Under the pieces are notes generated by a model. That model searched no databases. It had not been told where the DNA came from and worked only from the letters and a program-made list of their open reading frames with translations. Of a stretch of DNA of 64,000 nucleotides, positions 32,436-62,797 are shown piece by piece. The translations under genes and the position numbers were made by a program. Within the stretch, counting starts at the first letter, position 1. Each line of letters starts with the position of its first letter. This DNA is from Marinifilum flexuosum (GTDB lineage: Bacteria; Bacteroidota; Bacteroidia; Bacteroidales; Marinifilaceae): NCBI RefSeq assembly GCF_003610555.1, contig NZ_RAPQ01000008.1, positions 62,001 to 126,000 on the forward strand, given 5' to 3'.

Positions 32436-35210
32436 ATGCACTCATCAGCTAGCAATTCTGGCAAAAAGCTATTTTTATTAGATGCTTTTGCCTTGATATA
32501 CAGATCGTATTACGCATTTATAAAAAACCCAAGATTTACTTCAACAGGCATTAATTCTTCTGCCATGTTGGGATTTACCAATACCTTACTCGAAGTATTG
32601 GAAAAAGAGAAACCATCGCATATTGCGGTTGTTTTTGATCCTGTGGGACCAACTTTCCGTCACGAGATGTTCAAAGAGTACAAAGCGCAGCGTCCGCCAA
32701 TGCCTGAGGATCTTCGTAAATCAATCCCTTACATCAAAAGCATTATTCAAGGTTTTAATATTCCTGAATTGGATGTGGAAGGTTTTGAAGCAGACGACGT
32801 TATTGGAACTTTGGCTAAGAAAGCTGAAAAGGAAGGGTTTTCGGTTTACATGATGACTCCCGATAAGGATTATGCACAGTTGGTGAGTGAAAACATTTTC
32901 ATGTACAAACCTAAACGATCGGGAAAAGAAGTAGAAGTATGGGGATTGCCTGAAGTTCAAGAAAACTTTGGAGTAGAAACTGCAGATCAGATTATCGATT
33001 ATTTGGGGTTAATGGGTGATTCGGCAGATAATATTCCTGGTTGTCCTGGTATTGGACCAAAGACTGCACAAAAATTGATTGGATTGTATAAATCAATAGA
33101 TGGACTCTATGAGAATACCGATCAGTTAAAAGGAAAGCAGAAAGAAAAAATTGTAGCTTCAGAAGAGCAGGTTCGATTTTCGAGAGAGTTGGCAACAATT
33201 GCATTGAATGCTCCTATAGATTTCGATGAAGAGAAATTTAAGTTGATAGATTTCGACGAAGCCAAATTGAGAGCCATTTTTAAAGAATTGGAATTTTTTA
33301 CGCTTGCTGAAAGAGTGTTTAAAAATCAAACTGAACTTTTCGACTCTCAGAATGAGAAATCTACGGACAGTGATTCGACAGAAGAAAAAGAAATCATTCT
33401 CAGAGACATAAATACTTTGAATTCTAAGTTTTTTATGCTTGATAACGAGCAGGTAAGGGCTGATTTAAAGGCAGAATTGTGCGTTCAAAAAGAGTTTGTT
33501 TTTAGAACAATTTTGTCTGATTCCGATCCAAACACTTCAAAATTGAGAGGCATGTGCTTCTCTTTTAAGAGCGACAAGTCTTTTTTTGTTCCATTTCCGG
33601 AAAATTTGGAAGAAGCAAAAAAAATTGCTCAAGAATTCAAATATATTTTTGAAGATGAGAAAATCATCAAAATTGGTCACGATTGCAAAAAAGACATTTT
33701 AGCACTTCGTTGGTTGGGCTGTGAAGTAAAAGCTCCAATTTTTGATACGATGATTGCACATTACCTGATTCAACCAGAATTGAAGCATGAATTCTCTTTT
33801 GTGGCAAATTCTGTTTTGAATTACAATGTAATTCAGGAAGAGGTGAAGGGGAAAGGCAAAAAAGCTCAACTGAGTTTGATGATGGAACCTGAACCAGTCA
33901 AACATGATCGGTATTGCGAAGAAGTTGTACTGGGTTTAGAGCTTAAATCGGAGCTTGAAAAGCAAATGGAGGACAATGGCCTAATCAAGTTGTTTAATGA
34001 GGTAGAAATGCCTCTAATGAGCATTTTGGCCGACATGGAATTCAATGGTGTATCGCTTGACGTTCCAACTTTAAATGATTACGCCAAAGTACTGAACGAA
34101 GAGGTAAATGGGATAGAGGCTGAAATCAAAGAAATGGCAGGTGTTGAATTCAATGTAGCATCGCCAAAACAGTTGGGAGAGGTCTTGTTCGAAAAAATGG
34201 AATTGGATAGCAAAGCCAAGAAAACCAAGTCAGGACAGTACTCAACTTCTGAAGCTGTACTAGCCAAACTTAAAGGCAAGCATGAAATCATTCAAAAGAT
34301 TTTGGATTTCAGATCGCTGAAAAAGTTGATTTCGACCTATGTGGAAGCTTTGCCAACCTATATTAACCAGGCATCAGGAAAAATTCATACATCATTCAAT
34401 CAGGCAGAAGCCGCAACGGGTCGATTGAGTTCTACCAATCCAAACCTGCAGAACATTCCTATTCGAACAGAGCAGGGAAGGTATATCCGTAAGGCATTTG
34501 TTCCTTCAACGGATGAGCACATATTCCTTTCTGCCGATTACTCGCAGGTAGAATTGCGTTTGATGGCACATATGAGCAAGGATCAGAACATGATTGATGC
34601 CTTTAATCATGCTGCAGATTTCCACCAGGCAACAGCCGCAAAAATTTACAAGCTCCCAATTGAGGAGGTTAGCAAAGACATGCGATCTCGTGCGAAAACC
34701 GCTAATTTTGGTATCATATACGGTATTTCAGCATGGGGATTGGCCGAACGCCTGGATATCTCAAGAAAAGAGGGAAAAGAGCTTAAAGACGGATACTTTG
34801 AATCTTATCCTGAGGTAAAAGCCTTTATGGATGCCAGTATCGAAAAAGCCCGCGAGGATGAATATGTGGAGACTTTGATGGGACGTAGAAGATACTTGAA
34901 GGATATCAATTCGAGCAATGCGATTGTACGCGGAGTGGCCGAAAGAAATGCCATTAATGCGCCAATTCAAGGCTCTGCAGCCGATGTTATCAAAATTGCA
35001 ATGATCAACATCGACAAACGCATGAAAAAGGAGGGAATGCAATCAAAAATGATCATTCAGGTACATGATGAATTGAACTTTGATTGTGTGAAATCTGAAT
35101 TGGAACAAATGAAGGTAATCCTTCGCGAAGAAATGGAGAATGCAGTGCAGCTTTCGGTACCTCTTACCGTTGATATGGGGGTAGGAGAGAACTGGTTGCA
35201 AGCACACTAA
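32436..35210 (+). CDS. polA: DNA polymerase I with degenerate 3'-5' exonuclease site
   Basis: 924 residues. 5'-nuclease domain (about 1-290: LLDAFALIYRSYYAF, FEADDVIGTLAKKA, GDSADNIPGCPGIGPKTA), a 3'-5' exonuclease-fold domain (about 330-530) and the family A polymerase domain with motif A DYSQVELRLMAHMS, motif B RSRAKTANFGIIYG and motif C VHDEL. In the exonuclease fold the motif I DTE is replaced (FVFRTILSD), motif II reads GHDCKKD and motif III lacks the YxxxD pattern, so proofreading is probably lost, as in some other PolI enzymes. It serves in repair and Okazaki fragment maturation. A second, diverged copy of its last ~32 codons lies at 36192-36290. Confidence 0.97.
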   Translation: MHSSASNSGKKLFLLDAFALIYRSYYAFIKNPRFTSTGINSSAMLGFTNTLLEVLEKEKPSHIAVVFDPVGPTFRHEMFKEYKAQRPPMPEDLRKSIPYIKSIIQGFNIPELDVEGFEADDVIGTLAKKAEKEGFSVYMMTPDKDYAQLVSENIFMYKPKRSGKEVEVWGLPEVQENFGVETADQIIDYLGLMGDSADNIPGCPGIGPKTAQKLIGLYKSIDGLYENTDQLKGKQKEKIVASEEQVRFSRELATIALNAPIDFDEEKFKLIDFDEAKLRAIFKELEFFTLAERVFKNQTELFDSQNEKSTDSDSTEEKEIILRDINTLNSKFFMLDNEQVRADLKAELCVQKEFVFRTILSDSDPNTSKLRGMCFSFKSDKSFFVPFPENLEEAKKIAQEFKYIFEDEKIIKIGHDCKKDILALRWLGCEVKAPIFDTMIAHYLIQPELKHEFSFVANSVLNYNVIQEEVKGKGKKAQLSLMMEPEPVKHDRYCEEVVLGLELKSELEKQMEDNGLIKLFNEVEMPLMSILADMEFNGVSLDVPTLNDYAKVLNEEVNGIEAEIKEMAGVEFNVASPKQLGEVLFEKMELDSKAKKTKSGQYSTSEAVLAKLKGKHEIIQKILDFRSLKKLISTYVEALPTYINQASGKIHTSFNQAEAATGRLSSTNPNLQNIPIRTEQGRYIRKAFVPSTDEHIFLSADYSQVELRLMAHMSKDQNMIDAFNHAADFHQATAAKIYKLPIEEVSKDMRSRAKTANFGIIYGISAWGLAERLDISRKEGKELKDGYFESYPEVKAFMDASIEKAREDEYVETLMGRRRYLKDINSSNAIVRGVAERNAINAPIQGSAADVIKIAMINIDKRMKKEGMQSKMIIQVHDELNFDCVKSELEQMKVILREEMENAVQLSVPLTVDMGVGENWLQAH

Positions 35211-35272
35211 ATCATCAGTTATAAAATATTACAAATGCCGAATGGAGATTGAATTCTTTGTTCGGCGTTTTT
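35112..35272 (+). repeat. Direct repeat, copy 1: polA 3' end plus terminator
   Basis: This stretch (last 33 codons of polA including the stop, and its downstream terminator) recurs at 36192-36352, offset by exactly 1080 bp, with about 11 mismatches in 161 bp and no indels. The dinD gene lies between the copies. Confidence 0.95.
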
Positions 35273-35275
35273 TTG
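35235..35275 (+). terminator. Terminator of polA
   Basis: ATGCCGAA pairs with TTCGGCGT (one G-T pair) and is followed by seven T. It is duplicated at about 36315-36354. Confidence 0.75.
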
Positions 35276-35319
35276 ATCTTAATGGTAAATGATAATGTAA
35301 TAATTGGTATATTTATGTT

Positions 35320-36156
35320 ATGAAAAAATCCGTAATATATACTTTAACTGATAACTTTGAATCTCAAGCGCATTCAACTTCAGAAGGAGTTGAATTTTGG
35401 ATGGCTAGAGATTTGCAACACCTTTTAGGTTATTCAAAATGGGATAATTTCCAGGGAGTTATTTTAAAAGCAAAAACAGCATGTGAGCTTTCAGAGCAAA
35501 AAATTGAAGACCATTTTGCTGACGTCGGGAAAATGGTCGTAATTGGTTCAGGAGCGGAAAAGAAAATCTCCGACATTATGCTTACAAGATATGCTTGTTA
35601 TTTAGTAGCACAAAATGGAGATCCTAGAAAAGAACAAATAGCATTTGCTCAACGTTATTTTGCTGTTCAGACCAGAAAAGCTGAATTAATAGAGCAAAAA
35701 ATGCTTGAACACGAAAGAGTTCAAGCCAGAAATAAACTCAAAGAGACAGAAAAAGAATTGTCTCAAGTTATTTTTGAACAAACAGGAGGGAATCAAAATT
35801 TTGCTATTATCAGGAGTAAAGGGGATGCCGCTTTATTTGGAAGAACTACTCAACAAATGAAGGAGAAGTGGGAAATTAAAAATAAACCTTTAGCTGATTT
35901 TATGCCAACCATTTTATTAAAAGCTAAGGATTTTGCTACTGAGATTACCATTTTTAATGCAAAGGAAAATGAAATGAGTTCTGAGCGTCAGATTTCAAAT
36001 GAGCATATAACCAACAATGAAACTGTAAGAAAAACATTGATATCCCGTGGAATTCAGCCTGAAAACTTAGATCCAGAAGAGGATATAAATAAGATTGATA
36101 GAAGACTTAAAAGCGATGAAAAGAAGAGTTTAAAAAATCCTAAAAAATTAAAATAG
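35320..36156 (+). CDS. dinD: DinD-like DNA-damage-inducible protein
   Basis: 278 residues, close to the 274 of E. coli DinD. The N-terminal half has the Bro-N-like pattern (EFWMARDLQHLLGYSKWDNF, and MLTRYACYLVAQNGDPRK with FAQRYFAVQTRK) and the middle the DinD-typical FAIIRSKGDAALFG. E. coli DinD is SOS-induced and inhibits RecA filament function in vitro (established for that protein). Here it is a single-gene islet between two copies of the polA 3' end, which points to acquisition by integration or recombination. No SOS box can be called. Confidence 0.88.
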   Translation: MKKSVIYTLTDNFESQAHSTSEGVEFWMARDLQHLLGYSKWDNFQGVILKAKTACELSEQKIEDHFADVGKMVVIGSGAEKKISDIMLTRYACYLVAQNGDPRKEQIAFAQRYFAVQTRKAELIEQKMLEHERVQARNKLKETEKELSQVIFEQTGGNQNFAIIRSKGDAALFGRTTQQMKEKWEIKNKPLADFMPTILLKAKDFATEITIFNAKENEMSSERQISNEHITNNETVRKTLISRGIQPENLDPEEDINKIDRRLKSDEKKSLKNPKKLK

Positions 36157-36191
36157 AATAACAATTGCTAAAAATTTGCACTAAAAAAATT

Positions 36192-36290
36192 AACGTAATC
36201 CTTCGTGAAGAAATGGAGAATGCAGTGCAGATTTCGGTACCATTTACCGTTGATATGGGGGTAGGAGAGAACTGGTTGCAAGCGCACTAA
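36192..36290 (+). pseudogene. polA: Displaced copy of the polA 3' end
   Basis: Thirty-two codons and a stop (36288-36290) matching the end of polA with six base differences; the peptide differs by only a few substitutions (Leu to Ile and Leu to Phe among them). It has no start and no upstream polA sequence. Base changes are mostly silent or conservative, so the copy diverged while under selection as coding sequence, for example in another strain, rather than after duplication here. Confidence 0.9.
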
Positions 36291-36352
36291 ATCATCAGTT
36301 ATAAAATATTACAAATGCCGAAAGGAGATGAAGTTCTTTGTTCGGCATTTTT
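36192..36352 (+). repeat. Direct repeat, copy 2: polA tail plus terminator
   Basis: Partner of 35112-35272. It includes the diverged terminator (ATGCCGAA / TTCGGCAT, then T). Together the repeats bound a ~1.08-kb islet carrying dinD. Confidence 0.95.
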
Positions 36353-36393
36353 TATATATAATTAAATAGAATCCTCTGTAGTCCTGTATTTAC

Positions 36394-36602
36394 CGATCGG
36401 AGTTAATAAAATAGCGTCTGAGTAGTCATTAGACCCATTTGAGTAAGGTAGATACCCTTTTGAGTAGGCCAAATACCCATCAGAGTTAACAATTACCCCT
36501 TCTGAGTAGCGAAAATACCCATCGGAGTAACCAGGTAAGCCGTCTGAGTTACTGAAACACCCTTCTGAGTTACAAATATTGGCGTCTGAGTTAACTCAAA
36601 TC
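36394..36602. repeat. 21-nt-period tandem array, 10 forward units
   Basis: Ten diverged units share the pattern CCnTCTGAGT followed by an A-rich variable half ending in ATAC-like bases. The GAGT core falls at 36400, 36420, 36441, 36462, 36483, 36504, 36525, 36546, 36567 and 36588: one step of 20 and eight of exactly 21. Units differ at roughly half their positions outside the core. The array lies between the polA-tail copy and the convergent S41 protease gene. It is not CRISPR-like, and is not an open frame on the plus strand. Confidence 0.9.
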
Positions 36603-36720
36603 AGTAAAAATGCTACTCAGAGAGGAATGTAATTAACTCAATTGCTAAATTTTCTTACTCAAAAGACAATATAAAAAACTCATTTGGTCATATTGCATAC
36701 TCAATGGGTTCAAATGGCAA
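36594..36720. repeat. Inverted continuation of the 21-nt array, 6 units
   Basis: The complementary core ACTC recurs at 36594, 36615, 36636, 36657, 36678 and 36699, exactly 21 apart. The junction of the two halves is the perfect palindrome GAGTTAACTC at 36588-36597. Further on, a weak seventh unit may be present at 36720. Confidence 0.85.
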
Positions 36721-36776
36721 CAAGAGGGTAGTGCTATTACAAATGAATATCCATATCGGTAGGAGTGTTGTTAAAG

Positions 36777-36816
36777 AAAAAGCTCATTCCTTCCGCAGAA
36801 AGAATGAGCTTTTTTA
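36777..36816. terminator. Bidirectional terminator before the S41 protease gene end
   Basis: AGCTCATTC (36781-36789) pairs with GAATGAGCT (36802-36810); T-rich tracts flank the stem on both strands. It would end transcription of the protease gene from the right and anything crossing the array from the left. Confidence 0.85.
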
Positions 36817-36872
36817 TATCAATTTTATTTAAGCTTCAGGCAAATAACTTAATCCTTTTGCCCTATTCCTTT

Positions 36873-38561
36873 TTACTTGTTTATTGCATGCAATCCAATG
36901 CTGCCATCTAAAATACCTACGTATTCGTTATTGCTTTCAAGAACCTCGATGGCACGAAGTAAAGTTTTGTCATCGCGCAAGCTGAATTCTATGCCTCCTT
37001 TTTGGTAGTGATATCTCTTCACGATTTCGTGAGCCAGAAGCTCTTTTAATTCATCTTTGAAGCGTTGTATGTCGCGATCTAAATTAGGTGCTAATTTAGC
37101 CTCTAATGCATCAAATTCATCAGTCGAAATATCAAAGTTCTTCTCTTCTTTGGCCGATTTCTTCAATGCTTTTAAGATCTCAGTACTTTCTGATTTGTAA
37201 GTGAAATCTTTACTTTCCTTCACAAATTCAACAAACTCATTAAAAAGATCATCGCTTACTTTAAATTCTTTAGCAGATTCAATGCTTTCCGTTTTGTTTG
37301 CATAAAGGGTAGCAAAATCAAAGAACATAAAATCACGTATCATATTTAAACTTAAAATACTGTAGGTGTCAGCATCTACTTTTATATCAGGAAGAATACC
37401 TCCGCCATCATATACCGAACGACCATTTTTAGTATGATATTCCGTTATCAAGGAATCAGCAACTTTACCAACGCTGCCATCTTCGTTTCTGTTGCTGTAA
37501 TCCAAAGCCTGAATACATCTTCCACTAGGGATGTAATACTTGGCTGTAGTTACCTTTAATTTGGTATTGTAAGTAAGATTTCGGGTAGTTTGAACCAATC
37601 CCTTACCAAATGTTCTATTACCTAGTACAACGCCTCTATCAAGGTCCTGAATCGCGCCAGAAACAATTTCCGAAGCCGAAGCCGATCCTCTGTTTACCAG
37701 TACCGCGATAGGAATCTCAGAATCAAGTGGCGACTTTGTTGCTTTGTAGCTTTTGTCCCACTTAGAAACTTTCCCTTTGGTACTAACAATATCTTCACCT
37801 TTATTCACAAAAAGGTTGGTAATTTCAATTGCCTGATCCAACAAACCTCCTGGGTTTCCTCTTAAGTCTAATACAATCGATTTGGCATTTTGCACCTTTA
37901 ATTCTTTCAATGCATTTTTCACTTCACCTGCCGATTTGTTAGTGAATTGGTTAAGGTGAATGTATCCTATTGAGTCGGTAATCATGCCATAGTAAGGAAC
38001 CGATTTAAGCTGAATTTTTTCACGAACCAACTTTTTATCCATGGTTTTCTTTACACCAGGGCGTTTGATTTTAATGGTAAGCGGAACGTTAGGTTGGCCT
38101 TTTAACAAGTTGCTCACATCATCGGTGCTTTTATCTTTGGTTGATGTCCCATTGATCTCAAGCATCACATCACCCGCTTTTAAACCCGCTTTATAGGCAG
38201 GAAAACCTTCGTAAGGTTCTGCAATAATAACTTCATCTTTGTGTTTACTGATTAAAGCTCCAATTCCAGCATACTCACCAGTTGTCATCAATTTAAAATC
38301 TTCAATATCTGATTCTGATATATAGGTGGTATATGGATCGAGAGTTTTTAGCATGGCATCCATACTCTTTTTTACCAAGTCACCCGGATCAATTTCATCT
38401 ACGTAAAACAAGTTCAATTCTCTGAACATGGTGTAGTAAATATTCAGGTTTTTACTGATTTCAAAATTTCTCTCATCCCTGCTGAACCCGAAAAATGCCG
38501 CACTACAAAACAGTAGAATAGCCAGCATCCAAATGGCTCCTCTTTTTCCTCGAAGCTTCAT
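36873..38561 (-). CDS. S41-family C-terminal processing protease
   Basis: 562 residues. An N-terminal signal anchor (about 8-26) leads to a short helical region, a PDZ domain (about 95-180: GEYAGIGALISKHKDEVIIAE, AGLKAGDVMLEINGTS) and the tail-specific protease domain with LDLRGNPGGLL, catalytic serine in RGSASASEIVSG and lysine in FGKGLVQT. The C-terminal ~150 residues are an extra domain seen in Bacteroidota CtpA-like enzymes. It acts in the periplasm on substrate C termini. A -7 element at 38660-38667 lies upstream; no co-transcribed partner is evident. Confidence 0.92.
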   Translation of the reverse strand: MKLRGKRGAIWMLAILLFCSAAFFGFSRDERNFEISKNLNIYYTMFRELNLFYVDEIDPGDLVKKSMDAMLKTLDPYTTYISESDIEDFKLMTTGEYAGIGALISKHKDEVIIAEPYEGFPAYKAGLKAGDVMLEINGTSTKDKSTDDVSNLLKGQPNVPLTIKIKRPGVKKTMDKKLVREKIQLKSVPYYGMITDSIGYIHLNQFTNKSAGEVKNALKELKVQNAKSIVLDLRGNPGGLLDQAIEITNLFVNKGEDIVSTKGKVSKWDKSYKATKSPLDSEIPIAVLVNRGSASASEIVSGAIQDLDRGVVLGNRTFGKGLVQTTRNLTYNTKLKVTTAKYYIPSGRCIQALDYSNRNEDGSVGKVADSLITEYHTKNGRSVYDGGGILPDIKVDADTYSILSLNMIRDFMFFDFATLYANKTESIESAKEFKVSDDLFNEFVEFVKESKDFTYKSESTEILKALKKSAKEEKNFDISTDEFDALEAKLAPNLDRDIQRFKDELKELLAHEIVKRYHYQKGGIEFSLRDDKTLLRAIEVLESNNEYVGILDGSIGLHAINK

Positions 38562-62718: not shown

Positions 62719-62797
62719 TTATCAATTAACAATTATCAATTAGTAATGAAAATTGCTTTATTACTAATTGTTAATTACTAATTACTAATTGAATCAA
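62719..62797. repeat. AT-rich inverted repeat between atpA and atpG
   Basis: CAATTAGTAAT (62737-62747) pairs perfectly with ATTACTAATTG (62760-62770), and the arms extend imperfectly to about 62724-62784 through reiterated CAATTA/TAATTG motifs. A related TTATTCATTAATAATTA sequence lies upstream of polA (32350-32380). It resembles an interspersed AT-rich repeat inserted between operon genes. Confidence 0.7.

Follow-up and report, generated by a model that had tools for sequence, protein, structure and literature searches.

Between two genes of Marinifilum flexuosum lies a row of GAGT tetranucleotides set 21 nt apart, and the question raised by this locus is what such an array is and whether its spacing, its sequence or neither is maintained. 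The array was analysed within a stretch of 64,000 nucleotides (the window, to which all coordinates refer). A sequence-only reading had reported ten GAGT cores with a strict 21-nt period, and all ten were recovered on the plus strand, at 36400, 36420, 36441, 36462, 36483, 36504, 36525, 36546, 36567 and 36588; all steps are of 21 nt from 36420 on, but the first is of 20 nt. Absent from that reading was an inverted arm of six ACTC cores (GAGT inverted) at 36594, 36615, 36636, 36657, 36678 and 36699, again with steps of 21 nt throughout, and the array is larger than first described. The whole is a mirror image in which the ten-core plus arm joins the six-core inverted arm through the palindrome TGAGTTAACTCA, which holds both the last plus core and the first inverted core. 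Both ends are capped, as read by eye, by degenerate units (CTGTAG at 36376 and ACAAG at 36720). The features of the locus are as follows.

36313 to 36353, plus strand: terminator-like hairpin directly 5' of the array, second copy of the hairpin at 35233-35270, read by eye
36375 to 36593, plus strand: plus arm, a degenerate leader unit with a CTGTAG core and ten GAGT units separated by nine steps, the first of 20 nt and the others of 21 nt; consensus of the unit (A/G)CCAAAATACCCnTCTGAGT(T/A)
36587 to 36598, no strand: central palindrome TGAGTTAACTCA, meeting point of the arms, with an offset of 6 from the last GAGT to the first ACTC
36594 to 36725, minus strand: inverted arm, six ACTC cores (GAGT on the minus strand), then a degenerate ACAAG unit at 36720, read by eye

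The scan for terminator hairpins reported the first copy alone (35233-35270). Inspection by eye also placed the start of the array leader right after a terminator-like hairpin at locus 1 (window 36313-36375), at locus 2 of the window genome and at locus 3 of G003 (L030, L081); elsewhere this is not clear.

The longest run of GAGT at period 21 is nine in the window, against one or two at every other period from 15 to 30. In a set of 100 first-order Markov sequences, each of 64 kb, the maximum over all these periods was two in 99 and three in one, and the array is therefore not a product of chance. A looser pair pattern matched 14 times in the window, with 11 matches inside the array, versus 1.67 expected. 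The divergence of the units is such that Tandem Repeats Finder scores no more than 36433-36530 of the array. Comparison of the eight dyad-proximal plus units of four arrays showed that GAGT is kept in 32/32 units and that the T three bases before the core is equally invariant (32/32); in the minus units the core is weaker, each base being kept in 18 to 23 of 24. The bodies of the two arms are unlike, A-rich versus T-rich when each is read on its own strand.

A search for three spaced GAGT cores throughout the genome (5.17 Mb, 16 contigs) gave 29 matches, all within three arrays: the window array (locus 1), one on C1 at 1054.3 kb and one on C2 at 656 kb. BLAST recovers the same three, and leader and register are common to all of them. 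Within the genome collection the leader pattern was found four times, at three loci of Marinifilum breve and at one of Marinifilum sp. D714, among matches from which the window's own record or a near one may be missing. The comparison with relatives proposed by the sequence-only reading gave a mixed outcome: the orthologous arrays of M. breve and D714 have a register identical to that of the window genome, but the number of units differs and some sites have no array. At locus 1, G001 retains part of the inverted arm, G002 and G003 carry other sequence instead of the array (an open frame, by eye), and G004 has no array after the terminator, where its contig is cut. The locus-2 array is also present in two further genomes of the genus, G002 and G003, is much reduced in a third, G004, and is absent from G001, and its minus-arm cores are partly lost. 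The locus-3 array is shared with G003 and has one extra unit in M. breve, and the gene adjoining it is present in two of five genomes. The fuller arrays of each locus are common to at least two genomes or records. The two arrays of G003 differ around the core (CGGAGTAAG versus CGAGTCA), so that a shared site could only be GAGT, which is short. Additionally, the M. breve array at locus 2 (L071) is a mosaic, its left half resembling that of D714 and its right half that of the window genome, which indicates that these arrays recombine.

The spacing was then compared among 11 arrays. The count covered nine fuller ones and excluded the remnants of G001 and G004 as well as matches outside the register (ACTC at 113 in two of the arrays, at 120 in one and at both 17 and 70 in one; GAGT past 370). 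In these nine, once the first step is passed, the cores are spaced by multiples of 21 nt. This first step is of 20 nt in five arrays, of 41 nt across a lost core in three and of 21 nt in one (G003 locus 2). The dyad offset of 6 from the last GAGT to the first ACTC is read directly in five of the nine and is implied in the other four by a second minus core at 27. The remnant at locus 1 of G001 has steps of 21 and 29 nt, and that at locus 2 of G004 has a dyad offset of 5.

The number of substitutions revealed that the cores are kept as well. The window and M. breve arrays align gap-free, with no indel within 330 bp, and differ by 33 substitutions in 308 sites, none of them in the 64 core sites (pooled P=2.8e-4; about 0.016 for each arm). 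Paralogues 1 and 3 differ by 89 substitutions in 308 sites, again with none in the cores; in these comparisons the cores were defined on the window array and those of the partner were free to be broken, although GAGT had itself been chosen from the array. The claim that spacing and not sequence is selected thus stands in its first half, as the register is kept in nine of 11 arrays while the bodies diverge, and has to be amended in its second, as the short core is kept too. In four array comparisons, 151 substitutions were accompanied by a single indel, of exactly 21 bp, and in the flanks 76 substitutions by 16 indels. Two of these comparisons have a sequence in common, and 13 of the flank indels sit downstream of L183, an unrelated array (3 indels per 54 substitutions without that region). 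Excluded from the count were the right flank of locus 3, which could not be aligned, every pair at locus 2, and a gap of 36 nt immediately to the right of the locus-1 array, which was trimmed because it fell at the end of the alignment. Among the excluded pairs at locus 2, that of the window genome and M. breve has a 20-nt and a 1-nt gap, which amount to one unit, and compensating 4-nt gaps, and the mosaic pair of D714 and M. breve has many gaps in the minus arm. A test free of any core definition revealed a 21-nt periodicity in the positions that vary among five arrays (z 12.4 and P 0.0002 for the plus arm, z 4.1 and P 0.001 for the minus arm), and this periodicity is also present between paralogues. 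The same register test was not significant for the one orthologous pair (P 0.36 and 0.95, with 14 and 16 variable sites). L183, of 42 nt, has kept its length in two relatives despite 47 and 56 substitutions, although a second aligner placed 3 gap cells at a column edge; in its periodicity, period 14 (z 3.8) outscores 21 (z 3.0).

Arrays of this period are not confined to the GAGT sequence. The sequence-only reading had proposed a genome-wide search for arrays, and besides the three GAGT arrays the window genome contains two of unrelated sequence: L184 (21 nt), which G003 lacks, and L183, which G002 and G003 both carry. A census of 1,329,191 bases, taken as stretches from 18 genomes of the family, gave 20 arrays with three or more copies that lay outside open frames of at least 150 aa; eight others fell within such long frames, half of these eight with period 21, and were excluded. 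Ten of the 20 have a period of 21 (two of these belong to one stretch in L181), two of 22, three of 41-42 and five other periods, so that 15/20 lie at 21, 22, 41 or 42, a fraction that becomes 5/10 without G007 and G019, which had been flagged beforehand and were sampled more. In other families of the order (20 stretches, 263,557 bases, no frame filter), one 21-nt and one 23-nt array were found among four array regions. According to mechanical gene calls, 16 of 18 arrays could be classified by gene placement, with four in convergent, eight in tandem and four in divergent gaps. The placement ties the array class to no single arrangement, and the arrays may have a promoter role, since tandem and divergent gaps can hold promoters. 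G019 carries many 21-nt arrays of differing sequence (L095-L101, L103-L108, L170-L177); several of these lie at the ends of contigs, and in some the units are palindromic. Palindromic units were rejected as a rule for 21-nt arrays: 4/21 consensus units had P<0.05 (Fisher P 0.003), the units being partly related and some hand-picked, and the GAGT unit itself is not palindromic (P 0.93). We also observed 7-nt head-to-tail repeats (TGAGTAA, TGAGTTA, ATTACTA) in G001, G003, G020 and at 62751-62790 of the window; seven is a third of 21, and TGAGT recurs. Neither these nor the unrelated 21-nt arrays were counted as relatives of the GAGT array; a reversed pattern gave no control for the search behind them, since TGAGT is identical when reversed.

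Literature searches returned no paper on such arrays in Marinifilum or Bacteroidales. The statement of the sequence-only reading that the array matches no known feature class is nevertheless wrong, as constant-size, variable-sequence non-coding repeats of 20-21 or 52 nt, with a short kept sequence in each repeat and no known function, have been described in bacteria, and their authors remarked on the two helical turns and proposed a nucleoid protein or an RNA, raising also a protein that would polymerise on DNA (Subirana and Messeguer 2021, PMC8161180). The GAGT array is a member of the 20-21-nt class as the available text of that paper defines it, by at least four repeats of which at least 60% have one length within 1 nt: its plus arm has one step of 20 and eight of 21 nt and its minus arm five of 21 nt; it is non-coding, with stops in orthologues, no parent gene in 38 genomes and 5 synonymous versus 14 non-synonymous changes; unrelated arrays of the same length occur in the genome (L184, L183) and in the family census; and GAGT is the short kept sequence, in all of the dyad-proximal plus units and more weakly in the minus units. 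It shares with that class, again in the available text, the two helical turns of its repeat, and differs from it in its two head-to-head arms about a palindrome, in the high divergence of its units, in the constraint on core and spacing measured across species, and in its host, a Bacteroidota family, a group not named in the 2021 main text (PMC8161180). The TAACTGA heptamer direct repeats resemble the array in being intergenic, in their short fixed core, in their occurrence in some Bacteroidetes and in their proposed role as binding sites; unlike it, they are 7-nt head-to-tail repeats, proposed as post-transcriptional regulator sites just 5' of start codons (PMC4679880, in its available part). 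A survey of prokaryote satellites likewise covers non-coding tandem repeats, but its available part describes no 21-nt constant-size class (PMC6749651). The literature searched gave no earlier account of two arms set head to head about a dyad, or of core and spacing, as opposed to the body, being constrained across species.

The array differs from CRISPR, in which near-identical repeats of 23 nt or more alternate with unique spacers, as only a 4-5-nt core is shared at the 21-nt period. Plasmid iterons and partition-site repeats are direct repeats about two helical turns apart that are bound cooperatively; the GAGT arrays, in contrast, are chromosomal, occur in three copies, have an inverted second arm and have no recognised replication or partition gene beside them. 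A Pfam scan of the six neighbour proteins of the three loci gave BRO-N, an S41 peptidase, DUF6249 (below cut-off), a carboxypeptidase-regulatory-like domain and two proteins without a match, and an iteron-type replication origin was rejected, as no initiator is among them.

Core and spacing are kept and the bodies drift in two arms whose bodies differ, and therefore a set of phased sites fits the data best. We consider it plausible, if somewhat short of an even chance, that the array is a non-coding, dyad-symmetric set of about sixteen putative cooperative protein-binding sites two turns of B-DNA apart. The equation of 21 bp with two such turns, made in the sequence-only reading, is upheld, and the sites would lie on one helical face in each arm. 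Each site would consist of the GAGT core and the T three bases before it, with CCC further 5' in the plus arm. The arms join head to head in the palindrome, where a DNA-binding protein could plausibly load and then spread cooperatively along both arms, and the use would probably lie in organising the chromosome or in keeping neighbouring genes apart, and not in controlling a single promoter. We infer binding, cooperativity, loading at the dyad and use from the geometry, the recurrence at three loci and in several species, the core and spacing kept in the fuller arrays, the lack of coding signal and the other 21-22-nt arrays of the family. Several results speak against binding sites: no binding protein was found, equal sites do not need arm bodies that differ, the GAGT shared by the G003 arrays is short for a site, the orthologous-pair register test was not significant, minus cores are partly lost at locus 2, and some orthologous sites have no array. 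The spacing broken in the remnants (the 29-nt step of G001, the offset of 5 in G004), the period of 14 in L183 and the gene placement, with only 4/16 arrays in convergent gaps, weaken the binding-site reading and raise that of a neutral satellite. A bolder form of the former, which we regard as rather unlikely, is that the arrays are loading and spreading sites of an undescribed Bacteroidota nucleoid or boundary protein, with a filament that would load at the palindrome and grow outwards both ways, and that the wider class of 20-23-nt satellites might serve the same use with other cores. Repeats of fixed length and variable sequence are an acknowledged puzzle, since their length seems selected and they have no known function (PMC8161180, in its available part). 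The arrays described here offer a handle on it: named marine strains carry orthologues, the core is 4 nt long, the centre of the dyad is defined and the constraint has been measured, so that experiments could ask what recognises a pitch of 21 bp.

A neutral old satellite, functionless and homogenised, whose units multiply by slippage or unequal exchange, is unlikely. It accounts for the extra unit at locus 3 and the two-allele mosaic at locus 2 of M. breve, for the end units being the most degenerate by eye, for the absence of the array from locus 2 of G001 and locus 1 of G002, G003 and G004, and for the off-register, reduced remnants at locus 1 of G001 and locus 2 of G004. Homogenisation acts on whole units, however, yet the cores stay while the bodies diverge, and the sole indel in the four comparisons is a whole unit, against the 16 of the flanks. 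The sequence-only reading had named a decaying duplication without spacing constraint, or a lack of similar arrays, as what would speak against it; the G001 and G004 remnants do break the spacing, but similar arrays exist elsewhere.

About equally unlikely is a transcribed RNA acting as a sponge or scaffold, in which the arms would fold into a long rod with paired core segments alternating with A-rich internal loops. On each strand the array folds better than its dinucleotide shuffles (z -4.85 and -3.47; 0/100 shuffles as good) and unit-order shuffles give a negative z in 13/16, but the stability is mostly generic to inverted arrays of these columns (column-shuffle z -2.63 to +0.46; unit-shuffle z -2.12 to +0.35). 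Bodies pair at 254/510 positions at the true dyad versus 883/2040 at shifts of +-42 and +-84 and 191/510 at +126; double changes at the dyad are not in excess (54 versus 54, 37, 67, 60 and 49). On the leader strand, A outnumbers T in the minus-arm spacer of 7/8 arrays, and the constant-size satellites of Bacillus coagulans are transcribed (PMC8625621, in its available part). A sigma-70-like site on the minus strand (36774-36746) points into the array from its right, at chance level (4 sites in the region versus 6.3 expected), and a Bacteroidota-type promoter pattern had no match in 36000-37000 and one in the locus-2 array of the window genome. The three Rfam matches in 35000-38000 are all below the gathering score, which places the array in no described structured RNA family. 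Pair-specific folding has at most weak support, and the phased RNA element suggested by the sequence-only reading is likewise weakly supported, the stability of the fold following mostly from the inverted cores.

It is very improbable that the array is a small non-autonomous mobile element made of repeats: leader and architecture are common to three loci of one genome and presence varies by species, but neither terminal repeats nor a target duplication were noticed by eye, phage and plasmid records give no match, and the sharing of the fuller arrays of each locus by at least two genomes or records reveals no recent move. A relic of a coding heptapeptide repeat (a YSDGYFG-like frame on the minus strand of the plus arm) is extremely improbable and was rejected, as, although 21 is divisible by three and one minus-strand frame crosses the plus arm without a stop in each of the three arrays of the window genome, that frame has stops in orthologues (TGA in G002, TAA and TAG in G003), its changes between the window and M. 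breve are blind to codons, the inverted arm has identical spacing, and a composite query of 38 genomes found no parent gene, the best match outside these arrays (E 0.009) lying in a 21-nt array of G019.

The region upstream of the window array may have a history of its own. A BRO-N gene (35320-36156), which we take to be DinD-like, is flanked on one side by polA, named by eye, and on the other by a repeated polA 3' end (window 35104-36310). This second copy, at 36184-36310, is 127 bp long and 94% identical. In M. breve and G001, polA runs on to the array without the BRO-N insert, and the segment therefore looks like an integration at the 3' end of polA.
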